Shown: piece after piece, positions 42,405 to 55,919 of the stretch | How positions within the stretch are numbered: position 1 is the first letter of the stretch | Layout of the letters: each line of letters begins with the position of its first letter | Assembly: GCF_001458355.1 (NCBI RefSeq) | Contig: NZ_CYSA01000015.1 | Coordinates: 563,001-627,000 of the forward strand | Direction: 5' to 3' | Origin: Thalassovita gelatinovora | GTDB taxonomy: Bacteria > Pseudomonadota > Alphaproteobacteria > Rhodobacterales > Rhodobacteraceae | Length of the DNA stretch: 64,000 nucleotides | Notes under the pieces: model-generated | Seen by the model: the letters and a program-made list of their open reading frames with translations, nothing else | What the model was told of the DNA's origin: nothing | The model's database searches: none | Position numbers and translations under genes: made by a program

Positions 42405-42749
42405 ATGAGCATCACCCGTCTGCACCCCGGCCCGCGCATGAGTCAGGCCGTCATTCACAACAACACCGTCTATCTTGCCGGGCAGGTCGGCACAGCTGGT
42501 GCCGATGTCACCACCCAGACCAAGGATTGCCTGAAAGCTGTCGACGCGCGTCTGGCAGAGGCCGGCAGCGACAAGTCCAAGCTTTTACAGGTGATCATCT
42601 GGCTGGCTGACATGTCTGACTTTGCCGAAATGAATGCGGTCTACGATGACTGGATTGACCCGGCAAACCCGGCAGCACGCGCTTGCGGCGAAGCCAAACT
42701 GGCAACGCCCGAGTACAAGGTCGAATTCATCGTCACGGCCGCGATCTGA
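42405..42749 (+). CDS. RidA/YjgF-family protein
   Basis: 114 aa, the normal size of the trimeric RidA fold. It begins RLHPGPRMSQAVIHNNTVYL and keeps the arginine of the deaminase site in NPAARACGEAKLA, the residue that holds the enamine or imine carboxylate in active RidA proteins. RidA removes reactive 2-aminoacrylate-type intermediates formed by PLP enzymes. ATG 42405 is the family start; an upstream frame to 42300 is rejected. Its closeness to the catabolic island with a PLP enzyme and an amino-acid oxidase suggests a partner role. Confidence 0.88.
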   Translation: MSITRLHPGPRMSQAVIHNNTVYLAGQVGTAGADVTTQTKDCLKAVDARLAEAGSDKSKLLQVIIWLADMSDFAEMNAVYDDWIDPANPAARACGEAKLATPEYKVEFIVTAAI

Positions 42750-42759
42750 TCGCCGCCTC

Positions 42760-42791
42760 AGCCGGGGCCAAACCTGACACGTGCCCCGGCT
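42760..42791 (+). terminator. Stem-loop after ridA
   Basis: AGCCGGGGC and GCCCCGGCT form a perfect 9-base stem with a 14-base loop, beginning 10 bases after the stop codon. No T-run follows. It probably marks the end of the ridA transcript. Confidence 0.55.
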
Positions 42792-42901
42792 ACTTGCGCC
42801 AGCAAAATCGAAACCGCGACACCGGAACATGATCCGGCAAAAGATGTGAAAGGTTTCTTGGCAACCCTGTGTCCATTTTCGCAAAAGTCGGAGAATGGTG
42901 G

Positions 42902-43629
42902 TTAGATATACGCACTAACCCCCCGAATACCGGATGCCACTGCCGTCAACGCCAAAAGCGCTATAGCGGCTTTGCGATAGCCGCTTTCTCCGAGCCTTGA
43001 GAAGACCTGCCCGCCAGCCCAAGTGCCAACCAAAAGTGCGGGCAGCGCGGTGACCGCAAGCAGCGCAATGTCCCGGTCCAACTGATCAGCAACAATGAGC
43101 CCGGGTAGCGCCATCAGCGACGTGATGAAGAAAAACACCATAAGCGAAGCGCGCGTGATTACCGCCGCCTGGGAGCGCCCAAGAAAATAAGCGATCGCGG
43201 GCGGTCCGGGCATGGCTGCCAGGCCGGAAAACACCCCCGACAACAGGCCGGCGGCTATCGCGGGATTCCGTCCTGGCGGCAATTCGATTTTTGCCAGCAA
43301 AGCGGTCAACCCGGCAATCACCACCAGCGCCAAAACGATCCGCATCGCGTCTGGTGATAGTTGCGTCAGCCCCCAGATCCCGACCGGAGTTCCCAAGATT
43401 GCCCCAAGCGAAAGCAGCGAACAGCATTGCGATCCAGCAACGCGCGCATCGACACCACATCACGCAGTCCGACAAGGCATTGCAGCATAATGGCAAGCGA
43501 AACGGCACTGGCCGGGGGCATGATAATGCTCATTGCCGGCACAGCGGCCAGAGCAAAACCAAATCCCGTCATTCCCCTCAGAACTGCCGCAGCAAAAACC
43601 GCCGCACTTACGGTCAACGCTAGCGTCAT
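42902..43629 (-). pseudogene. TauE/SafE-type exporter, broken by a frameshift
   Basis: The first part (43629 to about 43420) reads MTLALTVSAAVFAAAVLRGM then TGFGFALAAVPAMSI, and the second part (to 42902) reads LLSLGAILGTPVGIWGLTQL in another frame. Joined, they give an uninterrupted eight-helix protein of about 242 aa, full length for the sulfite/organosulfonate exporter family PF01925. A one-base loss within GTTCGCTG near 43414-43421 explains the break. It could be a true recent mutation or a sequencing error. It lies downstream of the Lrp gene on the same strand, beside a sulfur-flavoured gene set. Confidence 0.8.
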
Positions 43630-43834
43630 GCTTCAAACGACTTTACAATTGTTTCATTGATGTCCAACATTCGCCTCAAATAACGCTGCTTTGCCACGCA
43701 GTGGTATTTAAATCTGCCGCGATAGTCGTCATCCTGACTGCCGCAACAAGTCCGAAACGGCTGTCCTGTGCACAGACGATGACGGGGCGATACTTAACTT
43801 GTCGCTGGACCACCACGATTTCCCTTCGCCCCCC

Positions 43835-44347
43835 TCAGAGATAGGTTGTCGGGATCGCGGTGGTAAACTTCAGTTCTTCCATCGAGATCATCGAGTTCAC
43901 CTGGCTGAATTCCAAACGCCGGATCATTTGTTTGTAAACTGCGTCATAGGAATCCATATCCGGCACCACGACCTTCAGGATGTAATCGACCGTGCCGGTC
44001 AGGCGATAAGCTTCGACCACTTCGGGGATTTCGTCGATCAATTCGCGAAACCGATGCAGCCATTCAATCTCATGGCGCGACGTGCTGATCCCGATAAAGA
44101 CGGTCAGGGGAACATTGGCTCGGGTTTGATCGACCAAGACCACACGCTTCTTGATCACCCCTGCCTCTTCCATCCGTTTGATCCGCCGCCAACAGGGGTT
44201 GGTCGACAGACCCACAGCTTCGGAAATCGCTTGAATCGGAGTGTCGCTGTCATGTTGCAGAATTTCGAGAATCCGCTGATCGGTTTCATCGAAAGTCATG
44301 GTTGCGATCGGTTTGGAACCGGTTTTTCGAGGACGTGGTTCCGTCAT
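43835..44347 (-). CDS. Lrp/AsnC-family transcriptional regulator
   Basis: 170 aa. The N-terminal helix-turn-helix lies in FDETDQRILEILQHDSDTPI and QAISEAVGLSTNPCWRRIKR, the C-terminal RAM ligand domain in PLTVFIGISTSRHEIEWLHR. The opening codons add a basic tail (MTEPRPRKTGSKPIATM); the alternative start is the second Met, at 44299. ATG 44347 overlaps the stop of the VOC gene, so it is co-transcribed with it. Lrp-type proteins sense amino acids and usually control the adjacent operon, here the divergent transporter unit. Confidence 0.92.
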   Translation of the reverse strand: MTEPRPRKTGSKPIATMTFDETDQRILEILQHDSDTPIQAISEAVGLSTNPCWRRIKRMEEAGVIKKRVVLVDQTRANVPLTVFIGISTSRHEIEWLHRFRELIDEIPEVVEAYRLTGTVDYILKVVVPDMDSYDAVYKQMIRRLEFSQVNSMISMEELKFTTAIPTTYL

Positions 44348-45204
44348 GCGAGAACAAACTCCATAAGAACACCTGCTGCAAATTCTGGTCCCACGGTAAG
44401 ACCATCAGATGTTTCGGAAAAAGCCACATTCGAATTCACAAGGCAATCCTTTGCCGCCTCAAGATCGCGCGTCTTTATCCGCAACACGGTAAAAGCGCCA
44501 TTCGCGGTGGCGGAAAGATCAATCCCCGGATAACGCTTGGCCATTGTTGACGGGTCGCACAGGATCAGCGGAGCCGAATTCAGTCCGGTGTGGACCGTGA
44601 AACAATCATCCTCTTGTGTCACATGGCCCTCGGCCCAAAGCCGGGCAAAGCCATTGGCGTCTTTCTCAGGGCGATCCGAAATGGCCAGAATCGCATCGAT
44701 TCCACAGGCCGTGTTGCGATGCTCCAACAATTCAGGAATCCACACCGTCTCGCGGGTTTTGTGCTGACACATGAACACCATTCCAAGTGGCATGTCTGCC
44801 GGGGTAAAGGAGACGGTTGAGAAGGCCGCGACTCCCTCCGACCCATCCGGCAAGGGCACCGGACGGGAAAAGTCGCCAAGCCCCTGCGTCGCCAAGCCCA
44901 GTTCAGACAAGGCGTCGGCCGCAGCTTCGGCATTCTCGATCCGGCAGGCTATGGCATGGAGCCCCTGCCCCATTGTGGCCAAGGTTTCCCGCCGCGCTGC
45001 GTTGAGATCGGTCGGCGCCAGAATACCCAGAAGTTCGAAATAATCTGTCGGGAACATGATGGTATAATTGGCCGATCCTTTGGCAGCAGAATGGGTACCA
45101 CGTGGGGATAAGGTAAAACCAAGCGCATCGTATTGTGCGGCGGCACTGTCGAGATCGTCGACGAGAGCAAAGCAATGGTCGATGCCTTTGACGGGATGGG
45201 GCAT
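44344..45204 (-). CDS. VOC/glyoxalase-like domain protein
   Basis: 286 aa. Looks like a Glyoxalase_3-type protein: HPVKGIDHCFALVDDLDSAA at the start, then MFPTDYFELLG, and a second similar half with HTGLNSAPLILCD. Metal-binding residues may be His10 and Glu residues in YFELLG and near the C-terminus (LMEFVLA), but the exact set is unclear. It is encoded between an SDR and the Lrp regulator in one minus-strand unit. Function unknown; a lyase or dioxygenase-like step on an intermediate is possible. Confidence 0.8.
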   Translation of the reverse strand: MPHPVKGIDHCFALVDDLDSAAAQYDALGFTLSPRGTHSAAKGSANYTIMFPTDYFELLGILAPTDLNAARRETLATMGQGLHAIACRIENAEAAADALSELGLATQGLGDFSRPVPLPDGSEGVAAFSTVSFTPADMPLGMVFMCQHKTRETVWIPELLEHRNTACGIDAILAISDRPEKDANGFARLWAEGHVTQEDDCFTVHTGLNSAPLILCDPSTMAKRYPGIDLSATANGAFTVLRIKTRDLEAAKDCLVNSNVAFSETSDGLTVGPEFAAGVLMEFVLA

Positions 45205-45231
45205 GAATGAAGTCTCCTGTAGAAAGAAAGA

Positions 45232-45942
45232 TCAGCGACGCACAGGCGCCAGAACGATTTCGGGTAGCGAAATACCCGACTGCATCTGCGCGACGAACAA
45301 CGCGGTTTTCGCCATATCCTCGGGCTGAATCATCGTGGCCAACGTTGCGGCATCGAATCCCGGGCGCTGCGCCAACAAGGGCGTAGCGACTTCTGCGGGG
45401 CAAAGTGCCGTCGAACGAATGCCGTTTTTGCCCTCTTCGTCATTGAGGCTCAGTGACATATCAGAAAGCGCGTGCTTGGAAGCCCCATAGACAACACCGC
45501 TGACCGGGGAATGGAATCGGCCTGCCCAACTTGAAGTATGGATCATCACCCCGTCCTGTTGCGCCCGCATGATCGGCAGACAGGCTGCGATTACATTGAG
45601 CGCACCGGTGATATTGACGTCGATCACCTGATCCCAGCTTTTCCAATCGAGATCGGCCCAGGTGCGGTTCGGGATGTTGAGCCCAGCGTTGTTGCACAGC
45701 ACCGAAAGATCTCCGCCCCAAGAGGCAATTTCTTGTGCGGCTCCGGCCATGCCTTCGCGGTCGGTCACATCACCACGTTTTACATAGACGTTTTCAGGGA
45801 TCGGCAGCGTGGCTGCCACAGATTCGAGCGCATCTTGGTTTCGAGCCGTCAGCGCGACGCGATAACCCGCTTCGGCAAAAGATTTCGCCATCGCCGCGCC
45901 GATTCCCGACCCAGCGCCTGTGATCCATGCAGTTTTTGACAT
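45232..45942 (-). CDS. Short-chain dehydrogenase/reductase (SDR)
   Basis: 236 aa classical SDR. Cofactor motif ITGAGSGIGAAMAK, NNAG at the expected place and the catalytic triad Ser (HTSSWAG), YGASK. It is the first gene of the minus-strand unit SDR-VOC-Lrp, divergent from the ABC transporter operon. It probably reduces or oxidises a carbonyl or alcohol formed in the same pathway. Confidence 0.9.
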   Translation of the reverse strand: MSKTAWITGAGSGIGAAMAKSFAEAGYRVALTARNQDALESVAATLPIPENVYVKRGDVTDREGMAGAAQEIASWGGDLSVLCNNAGLNIPNRTWADLDWKSWDQVIDVNITGALNVIAACLPIMRAQQDGVMIHTSSWAGRFHSPVSGVVYGASKHALSDMSLSLNDEEGKNGIRSTALCPAEVATPLLAQRPGFDAATLATMIQPEDMAKTALFVAQMQSGISLPEIVLAPVRR

Positions 45943-46011
45943 GTGTTTCCCACTATTTCGATATTTTGAAGATCATGTTACCAATTTTTAATCATAGTGC
46001 AGTGTATTTTT

Positions 46012-46033
46012 CCAAATTAAAAGTATAATTTGG
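46012..46033. promoter_or_regulatory. AT-rich palindrome in the divergent promoter region
   Basis: CCAAATTA (46012-46019) and TAATTTGG (46026-46033) form a perfect inverted repeat with a 6-base spacer, flanked by T-rich sequence. It lies between the divergent SDR and substrate-binding protein genes. Lrp/AsnC proteins favour AT-rich dyads, so this is a candidate site for the regulator encoded at 43835-44347. Confidence 0.45.
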
Positions 46034-46134
46034 TTTTACATGTTGACTGACATCGCGAGACGCGGTTCACGTAAACCGGCAACAGCACCAAAAGGCCCAA
46101 CGAGGCCAACCAACCGACAGGGAGAACCTGAAAA

Positions 46135-47730
46135 ATGACTTTGCAGATTAAAAAAGCGGGACTAGCGCTCGCCATGACCGGGGCTCTGAGCTCTGTGGCC
46201 TTCACGGCCACGGCACAAGAAGAAGTCCAAAAGGGCGGCACTGCAGTCGTTCATATGATTTCTGAACAGCGCATCCTGAACCCCGGGCTACGCGCCTCTA
46301 CCGGGGTGTACAACATCACCGGTAAAATCATGGAACCGCTGATCGACAAAAGCTATGAAGGTTACGAGCCTGTGCTTGCGACCGAATGGTCCGGCTCCGA
46401 AGACGGTCTGACCATCACTCTCAAGCTGCGCGAAGGCGTGAACTGGCATGATGGTGAACCCTTCACCTGTGATGACGTCGCCTTTTCTGCCATCGAGCTT
46501 TGGAAAAATCTGCTGAACTATTCCTCAGCGCTGCAGGCCAATCTTGAAAGCGTCGATTGCCCTGACCCGCACACCGCCGTGTTCAATTACTCAAAACCGA
46601 TGCCGTTGCCGCTTTTCGTCGCCGCCATGCCCGATCTGGGCCACCCGGTACCGAAACACCTTTATGAAGGCACGGAGATCCTCAAGAACAAGTATAACAC
46701 CGCCCCCGTGGGCACGGGCCCGTTCAAGTTCGTCGAATATGAGCGCGGTCAATATGTGTTGGCCGAAAAGAACGAGGATTACTGGCGCGAAGGATTCCCC
46801 TATCTAGACCGCATTGTTTGGCGGTTCATCAAAGATAAATCCGCTGCTGCTGCCGCGCTTGAGGCTGGCGAGGTGCACGAATCCGGGTTCATCGGAGTGT
46901 CTATGGCTGACGTCGAACGTCTGGGCAAAGACGACCGGTTTGACGTGGGCACACAAGGTTACGAAAACAACGTGGCCCATTCCACCGTCGAATTCAATCA
47001 CCGCAACCCGATCCTCGCGGATGTGAAGGTGCGCCAAGCGATGTATCACGGGCTTGATATTGAGTACGCGATCAAAACCATCATGCATGGCTATGCAAAG
47101 GCAGGTCGCGGTCCTGTTCCGACTGCGGGTGGTCTCAATTACACAGACGATGTTCCGACTTATGCCTATGACACGGAATTGGCCAAGAAATTGCTCGACG
47201 ACGCAGGTTATCCGGTCAAAGACGATGGCTACCGGTTCCATTTGAAGCACCGTCCGGCTCCTTGGGGTGAATACACCCAGCTTTGGGCCGAATATTACGC
47301 TCAGGCGATGAAAGAGATCGGTATCAATGTCGAAATCCTAACCAACGACGCGCCGGGTTTCCTCAACGGTGTTTATCGCGACCATGATTTCGACACCGCC
47401 AATGGCTGGCACCAGTTCCGTTCTGACCCGGCCGTGTCCACCATGGTCTGGTTGCGCTCCGGTCAGCCGGAAGGCACCCCTTGGACCAACCAGTTTGGTT
47501 GGAAAAGCGACGAAATCGATCAAATGATCGACGCCGCCGCCTCTGAGCTCGATGTCGAAAAACGTTCCGAGATGTATCACGAAATCCAAGCCCGCTCGAT
47601 GGAAGAACTGCCCGTGTTCTTTGCCATTGAGCACCCGTTCATCTCTGTGACATCGACCAAGCTCCACAACCACCACAACACCCCCCGGTGGAATTCGTCG
47701 AGCTGGTACGATCTCTGGATCGAACAGTAA
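46135..47730 (+). CDS. ABC transporter substrate-binding protein, peptide/opine (SBP_bac_5) type
   Basis: 531 aa. A Sec signal peptide ends near Ala27 (AFTATA/QEEV). The mature protein has the family pattern LATEWSGSEDGLTITLKLRE, GVNWHDGEPFTCDDV and later DDAGYPVKDDGYRF. Such proteins bind di/oligopeptides or amino-acid conjugates in the periplasm. It opens the eight-gene plus-strand unit and is followed by a strong stem-loop. SD AGGGAGAACC precedes ATG 46135. Confidence 0.93.
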   Translation: MTLQIKKAGLALAMTGALSSVAFTATAQEEVQKGGTAVVHMISEQRILNPGLRASTGVYNITGKIMEPLIDKSYEGYEPVLATEWSGSEDGLTITLKLREGVNWHDGEPFTCDDVAFSAIELWKNLLNYSSALQANLESVDCPDPHTAVFNYSKPMPLPLFVAAMPDLGHPVPKHLYEGTEILKNKYNTAPVGTGPFKFVEYERGQYVLAEKNEDYWREGFPYLDRIVWRFIKDKSAAAAALEAGEVHESGFIGVSMADVERLGKDDRFDVGTQGYENNVAHSTVEFNHRNPILADVKVRQAMYHGLDIEYAIKTIMHGYAKAGRGPVPTAGGLNYTDDVPTYAYDTELAKKLLDDAGYPVKDDGYRFHLKHRPAPWGEYTQLWAEYYAQAMKEIGINVEILTNDAPGFLNGVYRDHDFDTANGWHQFRSDPAVSTMVWLRSGQPEGTPWTNQFGWKSDEIDQMIDAAASELDVEKRSEMYHEIQARSMEELPVFFAIEHPFISVTSTKLHNHHNTPRWNSSSWYDLWIEQ

Positions 47731-47739
47731 AACTTGCCG

Positions 47740-47766
47740 GGACGGGCGCATCAAACGCGCCCGTCC
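47740..47766 (+). terminator. Stem-loop between binding protein and permease genes
   Basis: GGACGGGCGC and GCGCCCGTCC form a perfect 10-base stem with a 7-base loop, starting 10 bases after the binding-protein stop. No T-run follows. It mirrors the phnD-phnE stem-loop and likely raises binding-protein message relative to the permeases. Confidence 0.65.
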
Positions 47767-47810
47767 TCCCCTGACTAACTCCTTCGACTGGTCCTAAGGA
47801 TCCCAAGATA

Positions 47811-48800
47811 ATGACACTGCACATGCCCCCGGTCTTGACCTATGCCCTGCGCCGCCTTGTTCAGGCGGTGCCCGTGGTCATCCTGATCATGATCGGCACG
47901 TTTCTTTTGCTCAAACTCGCTCCCGGTGACACGGTTGATGCGCTTGTGGGCGACATGGGCGGCGCTGATGCCGCCTTTATCGAGCGACTGCGGATCGAAT
48001 ACGGGCTCGATCAACCCGTTTGGGTCCAGCTTTGGCGCTATATGGTCAAACTCGCCTCTTTCGATTTCGGTTGGTCTTTCGTCTATGAACAACCCGTTTC
48101 AACCGTCCTCATGGAACGGCTTGGTACGACGCTGATGCTGATGGCGACTTCCTTGAGTATCGCCTTTGTCGCGGGCATCGGGCTGGGTGCAATCGCCGCA
48201 CGCCGCGCCTATTCCACGACTGACAATCTGATCTCGGTTTTGGGCCTGGTCTTTTACGCCACCCCGTCCTTCTTCCTCTCGCTGATGCTGATGCTGCTCT
48301 TCTCCGTCAAACTCGGCTGGTTGCCGGTAGGCGGGATCACAACCATCGCCGCCTTCTATTCCGGCTGGGATCATGTCTGGGACGTGGTGCGCCACCTGAT
48401 CATGCCGACCGCTGCACTGTCGCTAATCTATCTGGCCTTTTACCTGCGGCTGATGCGGGCCTCCGTGATGGAGGTCGCCGATCTCGATTACGTCCGCACC
48501 GCGCGTGCGAAAGGCGCAAAAGAAACCCGTCTCATGGTGCATCACATCATGCGCAACGCGCTTTTGCCGGTGGTCACGCTTTTGGGCTTACAGTTCTCTA
48601 CCGTTCTGGGCGGCTCCATCGTAGTCGAAACCATCTTCACCCTGCCGGGACTGGGGCAGCTTGCTTACCAGTCCGTCGTGCAACGCGACATGAACACGCT
48701 GATGGGGATCATTTTCCTCTGCTCCATCATCGTCATCGTCGTGAATTTTCTCACTGACCTGCTTTATGCACGTCTCGACAGCAGGATCGAACTCGCATGA
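47811..48800 (+). CDS. ABC transporter permease, DppB type
   Basis: 329 aa. Inner-membrane permease with about six helices. The DppB N-terminal helix reads YALRRLVQAVPVVILIMIGT, and the EAA-loop equivalent is DYVRTARAKGAKETRLMVHH. The end VETIFTLPGLGQLAYQSVVQ then RDMNTLMGIIF is characteristic. It pairs with the DppC-type gene, which it overlaps by four bases (ATGA). Confidence 0.94.
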   Translation: MTLHMPPVLTYALRRLVQAVPVVILIMIGTFLLLKLAPGDTVDALVGDMGGADAAFIERLRIEYGLDQPVWVQLWRYMVKLASFDFGWSFVYEQPVSTVLMERLGTTLMLMATSLSIAFVAGIGLGAIAARRAYSTTDNLISVLGLVFYATPSFFLSLMLMLLFSVKLGWLPVGGITTIAAFYSGWDHVWDVVRHLIMPTAALSLIYLAFYLRLMRASVMEVADLDYVRTARAKGAKETRLMVHHIMRNALLPVVTLLGLQFSTVLGGSIVVETIFTLPGLGQLAYQSVVQRDMNTLMGIIFLCSIIVIVVNFLTDLLYARLDSRIELA

Positions 48801-49672
48801 CTCTCGCTGATACTGATATCGCCCCACCCGAACCCCCGCGCTATGTCATGTTCTGGCGCCGTTACCGCCGGAACCGCGCGGCTGTTCTGGGACTGTTCCT
48901 CTTTGCCATCGTCATCATCATGGCGCTCACCGCCGGAATCATCGACCCCGGCGATCCTCTCCGGCGTGCGGGCGAACCGCTCACCCCGCCCTTCGTCAAC
49001 TGGGATACGCCTTTGGGCACGGATCAGTTGGGTCGGGATGTGCTTTCCGGTGTTTTCTACGGCGCGCGGATTTCGCTTCTGATCGGGGTGGCGGCGACGC
49101 TTGTCGCAATTCTCATCGGGGTCGTCATAGGAGCGCTTTCGGGCTATTTCGGCGGCTGGGTCGATGACGTCCTGATGCGCTTCACCGAAGCCTTCCAGAC
49201 CATCCCGAACTTTGTTCTTCTGCTGACGCTTGTCGCCATCATGGGATCCAAGATCGAATGGATCACCATCGCCATCGGTATCGTCAGCTGGACCGCCCCT
49301 GCCCGCATGGTACGCGCTGAATTCATGTCTCTCAGAGGTCGTGAATTCGTCGATGCCGCACGCAATCTGGGCGTTTCGAACAGCGCAATCATCTTTCGCG
49401 AAATCTTGCCCAACGCTTTGCCACCGATCGTTGTCTACGCCTCGGTCATCATGGCGCTCTCGATCCTGATGGAAAGCGCTCTGGCCTTTCTTTCTCTGGG
49501 CGATCCCAACTACGCAAGTTGGGGCAACATGATCGGTCAAGGCCGCGCCGTTCTGCGCTCTGCTCCCTACTGCGCCGTGATCCCCGGCATCGCGATCATC
49601 CTCACCGTCCTGTCCTTTTCGCTGCTCGGCGAAGGTCTCAACGATGCGCTCAATCCGAGGCAGAAGAAATGA
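48797..49672 (+). CDS. ABC transporter permease, DppC type
   Basis: 291 aa. N-terminal helix after RYRRNRAAVLGLFLFAIVII, the conserved PFVNWDTPLGTDQLGRDVLS of DppC/OppC, and the coupling loop EFVDAARNLGVSNSAIIFRE. Ends near LSFSLLGEGLNDALNPRQ. It overlaps the DppB gene before it and the ATPase gene after it, so the transporter is made as a set. Confidence 0.94.
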   Translation: MTLADTDIAPPEPPRYVMFWRRYRRNRAAVLGLFLFAIVIIMALTAGIIDPGDPLRRAGEPLTPPFVNWDTPLGTDQLGRDVLSGVFYGARISLLIGVAATLVAILIGVVIGALSGYFGGWVDDVLMRFTEAFQTIPNFVLLLTLVAIMGSKIEWITIAIGIVSWTAPARMVRAEFMSLRGREFVDAARNLGVSNSAIIFREILPNALPPIVVYASVIMALSILMESALAFLSLGDPNYASWGNMIGQGRAVLRSAPYCAVIPGIAIILTVLSFSLLGEGLNDALNPRQKK

Positions 49673-51315
49673 CGAAGAAAAATCCACCTGTTCTCGCACT
49701 CCGCAAACTGGAAATTTCTCTGCCTAAGGGGGCGGATCGCCCCTATGCCCTCGAAGGACTGGACCTGACCATAGAATCCGGTGAAATCGTCTGTCTCGTG
49801 GGCGAAAGCGGGTCTGGTAAATCGCTTTGCGCGGGGGCCATCATGGGGCTCTTGCCCGAACCACATGTGCGGGTCACGGGCGGCGCGATCCGCTTCATGG
49901 GGGAAGAGCTTCGGGGCAAAACAGATGCGGAAATGCGCAAACTGCGCGGCGCCGATATTTCGATGATCTTCCAAGAGCCGATGACCGCGCTCAACCCGCA
50001 AAAGACCGTCGGCTGGCAGATCGACGAAATGCTGCGCCTTCACACGAAGATGAATAAATCCGAACGCAAGGCCCGTGCAATCGAGATGCTCGAACGGGTC
50101 CACATCCCCGAACCGCCATCGGCCTATAATGCCTATCCGCATCAGATTTCAGGGGGACAGCGTCAACGGGTGATGATTGCCATGGCCTTGACCCTGTCGC
50201 CCAAATTGATCATCGCAGATGAACCCACCACCGCGCTGGATGTGACCACGCAATTGCAAATCCTCAAACTCATCCGCGAATTGCAGAAGGATGAAGGCGC
50301 GGGCGTTCTTTTCATCACTCACGACTTTGGCGTTGTGGCTGAAATCGCGGACAAGGTCGCTGTGCTCTGCCGTGGTGAACTGGTTGAAAGCGGTACGACC
50401 GACGCGGTTCTCAACCATCCACAACACCCTTACACTCGGGCGCTGATCAGTGCCGTTCCCGCGCTCACGCCGCCGCCCGTGAAACCAGTGATCAATGGGC
50501 CTGTAGTACTCAAAGGCACGGGACTGAAAAAAACCTTTGCCGCGCGTGGTGGGCTGTTGTCAGGCAAACGTACCGCCGTGACTGCGGTCAAGGATCTGAC
50601 CTTTCAACTGCATCAAGGCGAAACCCTGGGTGTCGTGGGCGAAAGCGGGTCGGGGAAAACGACCGTTTCGCGGATCGTCACCCGGCTTTTGGAATGCGAC
50701 CAAGGATCGGTGGAATTGGATGGCAAGGATTTGCTCGCTTGCTCTCCGCGGGAACTGCGCGCGATGCGTAAACATATCCAGATGGTGTTCCAGGACCCGA
50801 TGGCGTCACTCAATCCGCGCAAACGCGTGGTCGATCTGATCGCCCAAGGCCCCATCGTGCACGGAACCAACCCGGCACAGGCCCGCGATGCGGCAAAGAA
50901 GCTACTGGAACTGGTAGAACTGTCGCCCGCCGCCGCAAACAGATTCCCGCACGAATTTTCCGGCGGCCAGCGACAGCGCATCGGCATCGCCCGCGCCTTG
51001 GCAATGGAACCCAAGGTGATCGTAGCCGACGAACCGGTTTCCGCGCTCGACGTGTCGGTTCAAGCGCAAGTGTTGAAATTGCTGGCCGACCTTCGCGATC
51101 GGCTGAACCTGTCGCTACTGTTCGTCACCCATGACCTCCGTGTTGCAGCACAGCTTTGTGACCGCATCATCGTCATGCAAAAAGGCGAAATCGTCGAATC
51201 TGGCCTGACCGCAGAGGTCTTTGCCAACCCGCAACACCCCTACACGCAGAATCTGCTTTCTTCCATCCCCGGCCGCGATTGGACCCCTCCGTCGCTGCAG
51301 GCGGATGTCGCCTAA
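49669..51315 (+). CDS. ABC transporter ATPase, fused DppD-DppF type
   Basis: 548 aa with two full nucleotide-binding domains in one chain. First half: [39 protein letters not shown]. Second half from about residue 280: [42 protein letters not shown] hydrolysis drives uptake through the two permeases. ATG 49669 lies within the stop of the DppC gene (ATGA); a longer upstream frame is rejected. Confidence 0.95.
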
Positions 51316-51325
51316 GGACTAACCC

Positions 51326-52954
51326 ATGTCATTGGAATTTCGAGACATTCGCAACTCTATCATCGGTGAGGGTTGCGCCATACCGGGGCCTTTCGGACCA
51401 CGCGCCCTGCTCTATGCCGATTACGTCGCTTCGGGTCGTGCGCTTGCATTCATCGAGGATGCGATCCGCACCCATGTCCTGCCCTATTATGGTAATACGC
51501 ATACCGAAACCTCCTATACCGGACGCCGCACCACGCAATTGCGCGAAATGGCGCGCAAGGCCGTGCGCGACGCCGTCAACGCGGATGAAAACCACGCGGT
51601 GATCTTTACCGGATCGGGTGCCACCGGTGCGGTAGACAAGCTTGTGCGGGCATTCGCGATGAAAGGGTTGGGTGAGGGCGCGGTGGTCTTTGTCGGGCCT
51701 TACGAGCATCATTCCAATGATTTGCCTTGGCGTGAAAGTGGGGCCACACTGGTGCGTGTCCCCTTGAATACGGCGGGCAGCATTTGTCTCGAAACCTTGG
51801 AACGGGAACTGCAGGCGCATTCTGACGCTTCGCTCAAGCTCGGGGCGTTTTCGGCGGCGTCAAATGTGACCGGCGTGCGCACCGACCTGAGCGCCGTCTC
51901 CCGGCTGCTGCATGATCATGGGGCATTTTGCATCGTGGATTTCGCCGCCGCCGCGCCCTATATGCCCATTCAGCTGTCCGAAACACATCCCGGTGCCGGG
52001 GACCGCATCGACGCGGCGATGATTTCGCCCCATAAATTCGCCGGTGGTCCCAGCGCTTCGGGCCTCTTGATCGCCGACCGCAGCTTCTTGGACACCGAAC
52101 GCCCGACTTTAACCGGGGGCGGCACCGTCAGCTATGTCACTGCCGAAGGTCACAGTTATGTAACTGATCCGGAACACCGCGAAGAAGGCGGGACTCCTGC
52201 CATCGTCGACAACATCCGCACCGGCATGGTGATGCAGTTGAAACGCGATATGGATGAATCCCGGATCGAGGTGCGCGAAGCCACGCTTACGCGGCGGATG
52301 GAGGAAGCGCTGCGCGCGATTCCCGGAGTCGAACTTCTGGGTCCGCGCAACGTGCCGCGACTGGGGATTTTTTCCTTCAACATTCGCGTCGGAGAGAAGC
52401 TGTTGCATCACAGCTACGTCGTCGCTTTGCTCAACGACCTGTTCGGGATTCAGGCCAGAGGTGGTTGTTCTTGCGCTGGGCCCTATGGCCATGCGCTCTT
52501 GGACATCGACACAGTGACCAGTGGCCAACATGAACAGGCAGTCCATCAGGGCAACAGCGTTTTCCGCCCTGGTTGGGTGCGTTTGGGTGTCAATTGGTTC
52601 TTCGAAGACGAAGATATCGATCGTATGGTCGCCGCGATCCAGTTCATCGCGGACCATGGGATGGAGATGCTACCGCATTACCGGCTTGATGCCGCCGCAG
52701 GCAACTGGAATGCCACCACTGTTTTTGACGACCCCCTGCCCGCCACCCTGTCCGAGCTTTGGACCGGGGCGTCCCGATTTGAAACAGTTACCCCCGATTT
52801 CCAAACCTGCTTGTCAGAGGCCGGGGTTCTTGCCCATGCCGCCAAAGACCTGCCCACGCCAGAGACCGTAGTTTTCACTTCGAACGAAGACGCGCTGCGC
52901 TGGTTCTGGTTGCCGCATGAGGCAGTACAGATGACGCAACAAGGAGCGCTTTGA
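51326..52954 (+). CDS. Class V aminotransferase/cysteine-desulfurase-like PLP enzyme
   Basis: 542 aa, longer than usual SufS/NifS proteins (about 400). The PLP lysine is Lys237 in MISPHKFAGGPSA, and RGGCSCAGPYG (Cys381 and Cys383) lies where SufS-type enzymes place their active cysteine. The substrate part FTGSGATGAVDKLVRAF is family-typical. The last 100 or so residues form an extra region with no clear counterpart. It could release sulfur from a cysteine-like substrate or act as a C-S lyase or epimerase. It lies between the transporter and flavoenzyme genes, 10 bases after the ATPase gene. Confidence 0.85.
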   Translation: MSLEFRDIRNSIIGEGCAIPGPFGPRALLYADYVASGRALAFIEDAIRTHVLPYYGNTHTETSYTGRRTTQLREMARKAVRDAVNADENHAVIFTGSGATGAVDKLVRAFAMKGLGEGAVVFVGPYEHHSNDLPWRESGATLVRVPLNTAGSICLETLERELQAHSDASLKLGAFSAASNVTGVRTDLSAVSRLLHDHGAFCIVDFAAAAPYMPIQLSETHPGAGDRIDAAMISPHKFAGGPSASGLLIADRSFLDTERPTLTGGGTVSYVTAEGHSYVTDPEHREEGGTPAIVDNIRTGMVMQLKRDMDESRIEVREATLTRRMEEALRAIPGVELLGPRNVPRLGIFSFNIRVGEKLLHHSYVVALLNDLFGIQARGGCSCAGPYGHALLDIDTVTSGQHEQAVHQGNSVFRPGWVRLGVNWFFEDEDIDRMVAAIQFIADHGMEMLPHYRLDAAAGNWNATTVFDDPLPATLSELWTGASRFETVTPDFQTCLSEAGVLAHAAKDLPTPETVVFTSNEDALRWFWLPHEAVQMTQQGAL

Positions 52955-52955
52955 A

Positions 52956-54254
52956 ATGCCCGTCGATTTTCCAAATTCGCTTTGGGCCAACACTGCGCCC
53001 GAACGGACCCCGTCCGCACCGCTTTCTGGCACCGAAGAGACCGATGTCGCGGTAATCGGGGCAGGTTTCACCGGGTTGTCCGCCGCAATCGAGGTGCGTC
53101 GTCGCGGCCACGCCGTAACCTTGCTTGAAGGCAAGGCGGCGGGCTGGGGTGCCTCGGGGCGCAACAACGGACAGGTCATCCCAATCCTGACCTCCGCCGA
53201 ACCCGACACCTGGGTTTCACGCTATGGCGACGCGGGCAAACGCATGGTTCACCTCATCGGCAACTCGGGTGATGTGCTGTTTGATCTCGTGCGCGAATTC
53301 GACATGCAAGCCGAAGCCGAACAAACCGGTTGGTTCCAACCTGTGCATTCTCCGGGGCGGATCAAACTGGCGCAAAAACGCGTCGAAGCCTGGCAACGTT
53401 TCGGCTTTCCAGCAGAGTTAAAAACACCAGAGGAATGCGCCACGATTCTCGGCACCGATTTTTGGCATGGTGGCATGCTCAATCCCACGGGCGGACATAT
53501 CAACCCTCTGGCTCTGGCACGAGAAATGGCGCGTATAGCGGAACATCTGGGCGCGGTGATCCACGAAGAAAGCCCGGCGATGTCGTTCGAACGCATCGGC
53601 CATGAATGGGTCATCACAACCCCCAAGGGCAAGCTAAAAGCCCGCGCGCTGATCCTTGCAAGCAACGCCTATACCGGTGAATTGGCCCCGCGTCTTGCGC
53701 CACGCATCGCGCGCTCTGTCGTGCCTGTTCTGAGCTGGCAGATGGCGACGGAACCAGTGGGTGACAATCTGAGCCAGAAAATTCTGCCAGGCCGCCAGGC
53801 GGTTTCGGACACACGCGGCGATCTGCGGTTTTTCCGCTATGACGCGCGCAACCGCTTGATCACCGGAGGTGCGGTGATCGGGTCTTTCGATGTCGCCAAC
53901 CGCGTGCGCAAAAAGGCCGCGCAACGTCTGGGCGAAGCTTTCCCCGATCTGGGTGTGCCAGAGATGACCCATGTCTGGTCGGGCTATATTGGTATGAACT
54001 GGGACCGGTTCCCCCGGGTACACAAGCTTGGCCCCGACGCGTGGGCCTGGATCGGGTGTAACGGCCGCGGCGTGGCGCTTGGCACGTCTTTGGGCCGCGA
54101 ACTCGCCCGTGCCGTGACAGGTCAGCCGGAGGACGAACTGGCCTTGCCGGTGACGGACCCAACCCCCTTTCCAATGCACGGGATCGTCCGCCGCGTGGCC
54201 CCCACCTATCTGGCCTGGCTCAAACGCCAAGACCACAAGGAGATCAACTTATGA
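52956..54254 (+). CDS. FAD-dependent oxidoreductase, DAO/PuuB type
   Basis: 432 aa. FAD-binding DVAVIGAGFTGLSAAIEV, then LLEGKAAGWGASGRNNGQVI, the pattern of D-amino-acid oxidase, glycine oxidase and gamma-glutamylputrescine oxidase. The C-terminal FAD part is WSGYIGMNWDRFPRVHKLG then AWIGCNGRGVALGTSLG. It likely oxidises the amine group of the imported or processed amino acid to an imine. It begins one base after the class V gene and ends overlapping the next gene. Confidence 0.9.
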   Translation: MPVDFPNSLWANTAPERTPSAPLSGTEETDVAVIGAGFTGLSAAIEVRRRGHAVTLLEGKAAGWGASGRNNGQVIPILTSAEPDTWVSRYGDAGKRMVHLIGNSGDVLFDLVREFDMQAEAEQTGWFQPVHSPGRIKLAQKRVEAWQRFGFPAELKTPEECATILGTDFWHGGMLNPTGGHINPLALAREMARIAEHLGAVIHEESPAMSFERIGHEWVITTPKGKLKARALILASNAYTGELAPRLAPRIARSVVPVLSWQMATEPVGDNLSQKILPGRQAVSDTRGDLRFFRYDARNRLITGGAVIGSFDVANRVRKKAAQRLGEAFPDLGVPEMTHVWSGYIGMNWDRFPRVHKLGPDAWAWIGCNGRGVALGTSLGRELARAVTGQPEDELALPVTDPTPFPMHGIVRRVAPTYLAWLKRQDHKEINL

Positions 54255-54745
54255 CAGACACAAAACCCATGGATTTGAACGACATCCCGATTTTGATGCA
54301 CCGCAAGATCGAAGCGATGATCCTCAAGCATGTGCTTGACGTGATTACGGAACGGTCAGGCCGCGACGAAGCCGAGGCCGTGATCGGTGCGGCTTGTTCG
54401 AAATCCGCAATCGAGCAAGGCCAGATGCTGGCCGAAGAGTTGGGCCACGCCCCGGACCTGACCGATTTCGCCGCGATCCAACCCAATTGGACCCGCGAGG
54501 ATGCGCTGCGCATCGAAACGGTAGAAATGTCCGAAGAAAAGATGGACTTCAACGTCGTCAAATGCCGCTACGCCGAGATGTATAAGGACATGGGGCTGGG
54601 CGATATCGGGCACCTTCTGTCCTGTAACCGCGATGGGGATTTCTGCATCGGCTACAACCCCGACATTGAAATGACCCGAACCCAGACAATCATGAAAGGC
54701 GCGAGTCACTGCGACTTTCGCTACCGTATGAAAAAGGAGGCCTGA
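54251..54745 (+). CDS. L-2-amino-thiazoline-4-carboxylate hydrolase-family protein
   Basis: 164 aa. The overall pattern, ending IEMTRTQTIMKGASHCDFRY, with SCNRDGDFCIGYNP before it, matches the small ATC-hydrolase family (PF14196), as far as can be judged by eye. Cysteines and acidic residues cluster in the last 60 residues. Characterised members open the thiazoline ring of 2-amino-thiazoline-4-carboxylate to N-carbamoylcysteine, but most members have unknown substrates. It overlaps the FAD gene by four bases and lies five bases before the M20 gene. Confidence 0.75.
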   Translation: MTDTKPMDLNDIPILMHRKIEAMILKHVLDVITERSGRDEAEAVIGAACSKSAIEQGQMLAEELGHAPDLTDFAAIQPNWTREDALRIETVEMSEEKMDFNVVKCRYAEMYKDMGLGDIGHLLSCNRDGDFCIGYNPDIEMTRTQTIMKGASHCDFRYRMKKEA

Positions 54746-54749
54746 AAAG

Positions 54750-55919
54750 ATGGCTGTTGAAAACTGGGTCGCCAAAGAGGTCGCAGATCTCACGGAGTTT
54801 CGCCGCGATCTGCATATGAACCCGGAACTGCTTTATGATGTCGAACGCACGGCACAAAAGGTGGCTGAGGCGCTGCGCGCGGCGGGTGTTGATGAGGTTT
54901 ATGAAGGCATCGGGCGCACCGGCGTCGTCGGTGTGATCAAAGGCCAAAGTAATACATCGGGCCGCAGCATCGGGCTTCGTTCCGACATGGATGCTTTGCC
55001 GATCGAAGAAGAAACCGGCAAAGCCTACGCCTCCAAAATTCCCGGCAAAATGCACGCCTGTGGCCATGATGGACACACCACGATGCTTTTGGGTGCAGCG
55101 CGACATATGGCGGAAAGCCGGGCATTCGACGGGACGGTGATCGTGATTTTCCAACCCGCCGAAGAAGGTGGCGCAGGAGCACGTGCGATGATCGAGGATG
55201 GGCTGTTCACCCGCTGGCCCTGCAACGAGGTCTATGGGATGCACAACCGCCCCAATCTTCCACTTGGACAATTCACCATCAATTCCGGTCCGATCATGGG
55301 CTCCGTCGACGAGGTGAAGATCACCATCACCGGACGCGGCGGACATGCGGCACGGCCTGAACAGACCCTCGATCCCCTTCCGATTGCAGGCGCGTTGTTG
55401 CAAGCGGTGCAGACCATCACCTCGCGCAACATGGACCCAATCGATTCAGCGGTGATTTCCCTCTGCACGATTCAGGCCGGCAATGCGTTTAACGTCATCC
55501 CGCAGGACGTTGTAATGACCGGCACAGTCCGGACGCTGCGTGAAGAAGTGCGCGACATGGTCGAAGAGCGCCTTGGCACCATGGTCGGGAACATCGCGGC
55601 AGCTTTCGGTGCCGTCGGCACGCTCGATTATATCCGCCACTATCCGGTGACGGTGAACCACGACCGCGAAACGGAACTTGCGGCGAAGGCCGCACAAGAG
55701 GTTGCGGGTATTGAAAATGTACATCTCGACATGCCGCAAACATTGGGCGGTGAGGATTTTTCTTTCATGCTCAATGAAGTACCTGGTGCGATGATCAATG
55801 TCGGCAACGGACCGTCCGCATCGCTGCATCACCCGAAATACGATTTCAACGATGACGTGATCGCGTGGGGCAGTTCTTACTGGACCACTTTGGTGCGCCA
55901 GCGGCTGCCACTTGGTTAG
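54750..55919 (+). CDS. M20 family amidohydrolase (hippurate hydrolase/aminoacylase type)
   Basis: 389 aa. Metal and catalytic motifs: GLRSDMDALPI, MHACGHDGHTTMLLGAARHM, FQPAEEGGAGARAM and GGEDFSFML, with HHPKYDFND near the end. This is the M20D N-acyl-amino-acid hydrolase pattern and not the hydantoinase/carbamoylase one. It would remove an acyl group from an N-acyl amino acid. It is the last gene of the plus-strand unit, after which transcription turns convergent with the GT-C gene. Confidence 0.92.
   Translation: MAVENWVAKEVADLTEFRRDLHMNPELLYDVERTAQKVAEALRAAGVDEVYEGIGRTGVVGVIKGQSNTSGRSIGLRSDMDALPIEEETGKAYASKIPGKMHACGHDGHTTMLLGAARHMAESRAFDGTVIVIFQPAEEGGAGARAMIEDGLFTRWPCNEVYGMHNRPNLPLGQFTINSGPIMGSVDEVKITITGRGGHAARPEQTLDPLPIAGALLQAVQTITSRNMDPIDSAVISLCTIQAGNAFNVIPQDVVMTGTVRTLREEVRDMVEERLGTMVGNIAAAFGAVGTLDYIRHYPVTVNHDRETELAAKAAQEVAGIENVHLDMPQTLGGEDFSFMLNEVPGAMINVGNGPSASLHHPKYDFNDDVIAWGSSYWTTLVRQRLPLG

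Follow-up and report, generated by a model that had tools for sequence, protein, structure and literature searches.

A conserved divergent gene unit of Alphaproteobacteria and a proposed oxidative route from thiazolidine-4-carboxylates to cysteine

Proteins of the PF14196 family (ATC_hydrolase) take their name from a thiazoline hydrolase, and one of them is encoded in the 64,000-nucleotide stretch of the Thalassovita gelatinovora genome analyzed here (the window; contig NZ_CYSA01000015.1, positions 563,001 to 627,000), between the genes of a DAO-type flavoenzyme and an M20D amidohydrolase and downstream of an ATP-binding cassette (ABC) importer. This arrangement raises the question of which compound such a set of genes would act on, and in which order. 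A previous reading of the sequence alone had proposed a single pathway for a modified cysteine or thiazoline-like compound, with the oxidation placed late. The comparison of relatives described below showed that the unit is conserved, and its best single reading, which we consider somewhat more probable than improbable, is that of a catabolic or salvage route for thiazolidine-4-carboxylates.

The divergent unit and its conservation

The unit occupies positions 43835–55919 of the window, is real and is widely common to Alphaproteobacteria. The genes of an Lrp regulator, a vicinal oxygen chelate (VOC) protein and a short-chain dehydrogenase/reductase (SDR) lie on the minus strand, divergent from an eight-gene operon on the plus strand that encodes, in this order, a periplasmic binding protein, permeases B and C and a fused ATPase, a class V pyridoxal phosphate (PLP) enzyme, the DAO flavoenzyme, the PF14196 protein and the M20D amidohydrolase. 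Overlaps of 4 bp join permeases B and C (48797–48800), permease C and the ATPase (49669–49672), the DAO and PF14196 genes (54251–54254) and the VOC and Lrp genes (44344–44347). All of these genes were found at or near the places where the sequence-only reading had put them, and their families were backed by searches with the hidden Markov models of Pfam and NCBIfam.

Relatives were collected on contigs representing one genome per species with scan patterns that favor this subfamily, and the best 80 of at least 571 confirmed matches were used as named loci. They came from Celeribacter, Sagittula, Rhodovulum, Paracoccus, Bradyrhizobium, Stappia, Cohaesibacter, Ochrobactrum/Brucella and others, and their genes were counted by tblastn, since simple calling of open reading frames (ORFs) picks antisense ORFs in some high-GC loci. 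The DAO gene was present within 12 kb in 69 of these loci and absent from 11. An Opp-type importer, the class V enzyme, the DAO, PF14196 and M20D genes were found together in the order of the window in 20/80 loci, more than expected by chance. The other DAO loci comprised a second group with the Opp importer and M20D and neither of the two PLP enzymes discussed below (20 loci), a third with the Opp importer, M20D and an enzyme of the Cds1 type (12 loci), a fourth with a branched-chain-type importer and a second, distant PF14196 paralog (13 loci), and four other mixtures.

In the genomes of the same family, PF14196 relatives were present in 25 of 295, and a DAO with at least 50% identity in nine, beside PF14196 every time, while the next DAO relatives reached 43% at most. 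On plasmids, all 13 records carrying a DAO of at least 48% identity had PF14196 within 7 kb (among the 30 records listed of 74 that matched), and an annotated Pseudosulfitobacter plasmid carried the full gene order of the window. The survey of PF14196 neighbors, which the sequence-only reading had put forward as a check, thus revealed a gene set that is conserved elsewhere.

Some copies appeared to be damaged. The copy at L077:8683-10140 (genome G206) looks decayed, its matches to DAO and to PF14196 both being broken up, and in L137, L146 and L148 the importer and DAO matches were split into two or three pieces, where decay and assembly error are indistinguishable. A clean empty site was sought in a genome of the same genus (G076) and was not obtained: the gyrB end matched at contig C7, the RidA stretch beside the unit had only a weak match, on a different contig, and no right-hand neighbor was found.

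PF14196 and its partner enzymes

The PF14196 protein (54251–54745, plus strand), a proposed thiazoline-4-carboxylate hydrolase, matched its profile over positions 2–145 of 145 with 122.7 bits, above the gathering cut-off of 28.1. It is followed by the M20D amidohydrolase (54750–55919, plus strand), a Peptidase_M20 protein and proposed N-acylcysteine deacylase, which scored 336.5 bits to TIGR01891 (cut-off 153.75) and 28 bits to the hydantoinase/carbamoylase model TIGR01879, under its cut-off of 204. The view, already expressed from the sequence, that this M20 enzyme is not carbamoylase-like was therefore upheld. Its best sequence match in the PDB was YxeP (276.3 bits), described as an N-acetylcysteine deacetylase (PMC9706529; all literature is cited here from partial texts).

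In the Pseudomonas route, DL-2-amino-thiazoline-4-carboxylate (ATC) is converted to carbamoyl-cysteine and then to L-cysteine by ATC racemase, L-ATC hydrolase and carbamoyl-cysteine amidohydrolase (PMC10821248). The operation of this same route in marine bacteria is a highly improbable explanation of the window. The PF14196 family is the same, and nearly all conserved residues are common to the proteins of the DAO type and the carbamoylase type, but the M20 partner in the window is aminoacylase-like, the oxidase that is present is not needed in that route, and no carbamoylase-type (TIGR01879) amidohydrolase adjoins the PF14196 gene.

The distribution of partners over 124 PF14196 loci (82 with and 42 without DAO) followed this distinction. 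When a partner was defined as a gene within 1 kb on the same strand, M20D was adjacent in 67/82 DAO loci and a carbamoylase in none, whereas a carbamoylase was adjacent in 8/42 non-DAO loci and M20D in none; when the limit was widened to 9 kb, an M20D was added for one non-DAO locus (L189) and a carbamoylase for another (L125). The DAO loci comprised 69 named loci and 13 others. Four contigs, identified by their lengths, were present twice in the table (L058/L097, L059/L111, L062/L144 and L063/L164), the DAO loci amounting to 79 without these duplicates, and L064, which holds no PF14196 gene, had been excluded beforehand. Plasmids of Pantoea, Sinorhizobium and Aminobacter carried PF14196 followed by an M20 hydantoinase/carbamoylase, with no DAO, in an arrangement that resembles the Pseudomonas pair, and the three carbamoylases tested reached 396–463 bits to TIGR01879 (cut-off 204). 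The idea of a split arose from these three of the eight carbamoylase loci. The remaining five were found in a phylum sample taken later, in which PF14196 was present in 30 of 398 genomes, that of the window counted.

Such a split is what the chemistry would predict, because a 2-aminothiazoline needs no oxidase and yields a carbamoyl product, while an oxidized thiazolidine would yield an N-acyl product, suited to an aminoacylase. The partner split therefore points to a thiazolidine-4-carboxylate as the substrate of the DAO-linked unit.

The same loci bear on a doubtful alternative, in which the compound taken up would itself be a thiazoline, such as a 2-alkyl- or 2-aryl-thiazoline-4-carboxylate derived from peptides or siderophores. 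PF14196 would open it and M20D would deacylate it, with the DAO acting later or elsewhere on the molecule. PF14196 can start an oxidase-free route, as indicated by the eight non-DAO loci that pair it with a carbamoylase, and an Opp-type importer would suit a larger ligand. This importer is, however, exchanged for a branched-chain-type one in 13/80 loci, the DAO and PF14196 genes overlap by 4 bp, and their pairing persists with no M20D or PLP enzyme nearby (L067–L069).

In the PF14196 protein, residues C105, C125, T146 and C154 were invariant (40/40 and 93/93). Since DAO-linked and carbamoylase-linked proteins have nearly all conserved residues in common, both kinds probably carry out the same hydrolytic step. 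The predicted structure (predicted local distance difference test, pLDDT, 92.6) has a Bet3/V4R-type fold, and no sequence relatives were found in the PDB up to an E value of 1. Partner labels clustered in the PF14196 tree, though not as one clade each: two Azospirillum loci with DAO and M20D (L172 and L190) were weakly placed outside the main DAO clade, and L125 was placed inside it.

Other settings of the family were also observed. The second PF14196 paralog (L109:2672-3331 and relatives, about 20% identity), beside the branched-chain-type importer, formed one tree clade of 10 rows. At L162:3210-12285, PF14196 was accompanied by a Glyoxalase_3 VOC protein, DUF3703, a CysK-like enzyme (415 bits to TIGR01139, over the cut-off), a LigB dioxygenase, an FAD_binding_3 monooxygenase and PrpF; these gene clusters were also found in L168, and the two loci apparently represent a different, aromatic-ring context for the family. 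Finally, an aspartate/glutamate-type racemase was found in the PF14196 clusters at L185:2409-3149 and L066:6800-7654 (a marginal Pfam match in L066), and it could provide a step like that of ATC racemase.

The flavoenzyme and the terminal enzymes

The DAO flavoenzyme (52956–54254, plus strand; PF01266, 197.4 bits) is the proposed thiazolidine-4-carboxylate oxidase. Since a profile search of the PDB with the DAO alignment gave no matches at E 1e-20, its predicted structure (pLDDT 88.3, from 38 sequences) was used for a fold search. Heterotetrameric sarcosine oxidase, L-proline dehydrogenase, glycine oxidase and monomeric sarcosine oxidase (MSOX) were matched, with the fold shared along most of the protein (TMq 0.71 for 1vrq_B, 0.71 for 1y56_B and 0.66–0.67 for 9u3b). 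The matches included complexes of SoxB with L-proline and with L-thioproline, the latter being 9u3b. L-Thioproline is a minor substrate of SoxB, used with 0.17% of the efficiency of sarcosine, and in the complex the carbon between N and S lies 3.7 Å from the flavin N5 (PMC12582975). Oxidation of a thiazolidine by the DAO is thus plausible on the basis of the modeled fold.

As regards the order of the steps, the DAO gene lies before PF14196 and overlaps it, and an initial oxidation is suggested by the partner counts, contrary to the late oxidation proposed from the sequence alone; we regard oxidation before ring opening as probable. The opposite order, in which an N-acyl or ring compound would be opened and deacylated and the DAO would then oxidize the freed N-alkyl or D-amino acid, is unlikely. 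D-amino-acid dehydrogenases and N-methyl-amino-acid oxidases are indeed among the DAO-superfamily matches, but DAO and PF14196 stay paired in loci that lack M20D, and the free amino acid would already be used by the terminal enzymes described next (SufS-like or Cds1). In L174 (Roseomonas), a DAO relative of 45% identity was found with genes for hydantoinase/oxoprolinase A and B and another importer, perhaps representing a different pathway that uses an oxidase of this family.

The class V PLP enzyme (51326–52954, plus strand; PF00266 Aminotran_5, 176.4 bits) is a SufS-like protein and a proposed cysteine desulfurase. Its motif RGGCSCAGP, with Cys381 and Cys383, was confirmed as it had been described: C383 aligned with the loop cysteine of SufS (AGHHCAQP), C381 was paired with a histidine, and H236-K237 aligned with the HK of SufS, so that both the catalytic-loop cysteine at the SufS position and the PLP lysine are present. 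Residues H236, K237, R378, C381 and C383 were invariant in 17/17 aligned proteins. The enzyme was matched in 75 of the 295 family genomes at E 1e-60, six of them with at least 56% identity.

A PALP-family enzyme was encoded after M20D in 12/80 loci, from rhizobia, Bradyrhizobium, Paracoccus and the like, all of which lacked the class V enzyme. When compared with the L-cysteine desulfhydrase Cds1 model NF052478 (cut-off 600), the enzymes of L122 and L123 scored 562 and 514 bits (next models, 154 and 119), and that of the Azospirillum plasmid locus L191 scored 533 bits (next model within 119–154). By sequence, these three enzymes are strongly related to Cds1, below the equivalog line; the other ten of the 12 Cds1 loci were assigned by 70–95% identity to the enzyme of L122. 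The class V enzyme was found in 30/80 loci, Cds1 in 12/80 and both in none, a lack of overlap with a chance probability of 0.0004 over the 69 DAO loci, which are not independent of each other. A third cysteine-using enzyme was sought in loci lacking both (ten neighbors, eight loci scanned), and no PLP enzyme was found.

Mycobacterial Cds1 converts cysteine to H2S and pyruvate (PMC8389258). Two unrelated types of cysteine-degrading enzyme replace each other in this pathway, which makes cysteine the most likely product of the pathway, a conclusion held with good confidence. The same argument stands against a substrate with a non-sulfur ring, such as serine or threonine oxazolidines, diaminopropionate rings or a proline or pipecolate analog. 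The best NCBIfam model of the DAO is indeed that of the L-pipecolate oxidase AmaA (NF050086; 245.9 bits, below the cut-off of 600), but both terminal enzymes indicate cysteine and the activity that gave PF14196 its name acts on a thiazoline (PMC10821248), so that a ring of this kind is quite improbable.

The proposed route, its setting and its meaning

From the observed gene set, its conservation, the exchange of modules, the families and the predicted folds, we infer a substrate, an order of steps, an activity for every enzyme and a ligand for the regulator. The importer would take up a ring adduct of cysteine and an aldehyde (thiazolidine-4-carboxylate; thioproline in the case of formaldehyde), and the DAO would oxidize the ring carbon between S and N to give a 2-thiazoline-4-carboxylate. 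PF14196 would hydrolyze this thiazoline to an N-acylcysteine (N-formylcysteine from the formaldehyde adduct), and M20D would remove the acyl group, as formate or another acid, to release L-cysteine. The class V enzyme would then desulfurate cysteine, with alanine and sulfane sulfur as the expected products, while in relatives a Cds1-type desulfhydrase, sometimes with a RidA protein, would instead give pyruvate, H2S and ammonia. The Lrp regulator would probably sense cysteine or the adduct. The conversion of thioproline to N-formylcysteine has been reported in bacteria and mitochondria (PMC9814826).

Several observations weigh against this route. It gives the VOC and SDR proteins no step, and L161 carries PF14196, VOC and importer genes with neither DAO nor M20D. 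The predicted fold of PF14196 resembles ligand-binding V4R/Bet3 domains and is unlike that of a known hydrolase, and the fold shared by the DAO shows no specificity, given that SoxB is poor on thioproline. The class V enzyme scored 171 bits to the SufS model TIGR01979, below the cut-off of 475.1, and has relatives of 42–46% identity in many family genomes; eight such loci were fetched, with no PF14196 and no close DAO in them. M20D was missing within 12 kb in 9/69 DAO loci and adjacent M20D in 15/82 of the wider set, and in 27/69 DAO loci both the class V enzyme and Cds1 were missing within 12 kb, so that parts of the proposed route are often absent from the locus. Of 11 neighborhoods fetched for the strongest matches of the phylum sample, five had a carbamoylase, six had neither partner and none had a DAO. 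The partner counts are not independent events, because most DAO loci share common descent. N-formylcysteine is also found in cell-free mixtures of cysteine and formaldehyde, and hence its formation alone proves no enzyme (PMC9814826). For the aldehyde part of the substrate, formaldehyde is just the simplest candidate. As an observation apart, the class V relatives in those eight loci (L083–L090; 43–45% identity) adjoin a divergent Lrp gene in all eight.

The importer comprises an SBP_bac_5 binding protein of the Opp/Dpp type (46135–47730; PF00496, 276.3 bits), permease B (47811–48800; Opp/nickel-type permease models of NCBIfam, every one under its cut-off), permease C (48797–49672; an ORF whose order is kept in DAO-bearing relatives, with 71–95% identity) and a fused double ATPase (49669–51315; 548 amino acids from the ATG at 49669, order conserved), all on the plus strand. 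The importer type was considered as a clue to a peptide ligand. This was rejected: since importers swap, a branched-chain-type one replacing it in 13/80 loci, the label is uninformative. Upstream of the operon, the sequence TTGAC (46043–46047, plus strand), a likely −35 element of its promoter, was invariant in 19 aligned divergent intergenic regions (53 collected).

On the minus strand, the Lrp/AsnC-family regulator (43835–44347; PF01037/PF13404) is conserved with the unit. Opp-type relatives in which this side of the cluster can be seen have full-length matches next to it, of about 58–87% identity, and Stappia-type loci have matches of 44–46%. The VOC protein (44344–45204; Glyoxalase_3, PF13468, 108.6 bits) has a divergently placed match in all DAO-bearing Opp-type loci except L126 (54 of 55), and is present with PF14196 and an importer, in the absence of DAO, in Humitalea. 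The SDR oxidoreductase (45232–45942; PF00106, 155 bits) is an optional member, unmatched in many otherwise complete loci (e.g., L121–L124 and L127–L131).

The unit is flanked by a RidA gene at 42405 (PF01042, 87.5 bits) and by a TauE-type gene (42902–43760, minus strand; PF01925, profile positions 75–235 of 237). The latter is frame-broken, its N-terminal part lying in a different frame from the C-terminal part, and real decay and sequencing error are indistinguishable here. Both had been described as adjoining, and RidA had been given a part in the pathway. At E 1e-8, no match to either gene was obtained in the 80 named loci. A search of 15 loci at E 1e-3, five of them extending some 6–8 kb past the divergent genes, gave none either, and since they are unmatched near the cluster in the relatives examined, both were rejected as members of the unit. 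A RidA beside a PLP enzyme is expected where 2-aminoacrylate is released; a different RidA was found after Cds1 in 5/12 Cds1 loci and one Azospirillum plasmid, and another RidA-like gene lies beyond Lrp in L127. The claim of a single pathway thus stood as regards a conserved unit centered on cysteine/thiazoline chemistry, and fell as regards RidA, TauE and the order of steps.

The unit resembles several known systems. It shares with the Pseudomonas ATC route a thiazoline hydrolase, from which the PF14196 name derives, followed by an amidohydrolase, and cysteine as the product, and differs from it in an oxidase before the hydrolase, an aminoacylase-like M20D amidohydrolase, a terminal PLP enzyme, an importer and an Lrp regulator. 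The yxe/scm operon of Bacillus subtilis for S-(2-succino)cysteine likewise has an ABC importer, obtains cysteine from a spontaneous adduct and encodes YxeP, the best PDB match of M20D; its adduct is another one, broken down by acetylation and then a monooxygenase or lyase (PMC9706529). Oxidation of thioproline by proline dehydrogenase, ProC or mitochondria corresponds to the proposed oxidation and ring opening, but in those cases proline enzymes carry it out, whereas the window would hold a dedicated operon of unrelated enzymes (PMC9814826, PMC12899673). Monomeric sarcosine oxidase SoxB has the DAO fold and L-thioproline as a minor substrate, with sarcosine as its main substrate and about 18% identity to the DAO in the structural alignment (PMC12582975). 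No dedicated bacterial operon was found among the titles and abstract beginnings of open-licence literature on PF14196, thiazolines or thioproline. On the best reading, the known thiazoline-to-cysteine route has a new, oxidative variant in this operon.

Formaldehyde and other aldehydes are trapped spontaneously by cysteine. Further enzymatic conversion of the resulting ring has been attributed to enzymes of proline metabolism (PMC9814826, PMC12899673). The chances seem about even that Alphaproteobacteria possess a dedicated, hitherto undescribed oxidative pathway that recycles or eats cysteine-aldehyde adducts, with interchangeable importers and cysteine-degrading enzymes; such a route is directly testable with thioproline, a purchasable compound. 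If true, it would provide a function for the DAO-linked PF14196 proteins beyond 2-aminothiazoline, for an orphan clade of flavoenzymes and for their importers, would explain why “thiazoline hydrolase” genes lie beside two kinds of amidohydrolase, and would link formaldehyde and aldehyde damage to the turnover of cysteine and sulfur in marine and soil bacteria.

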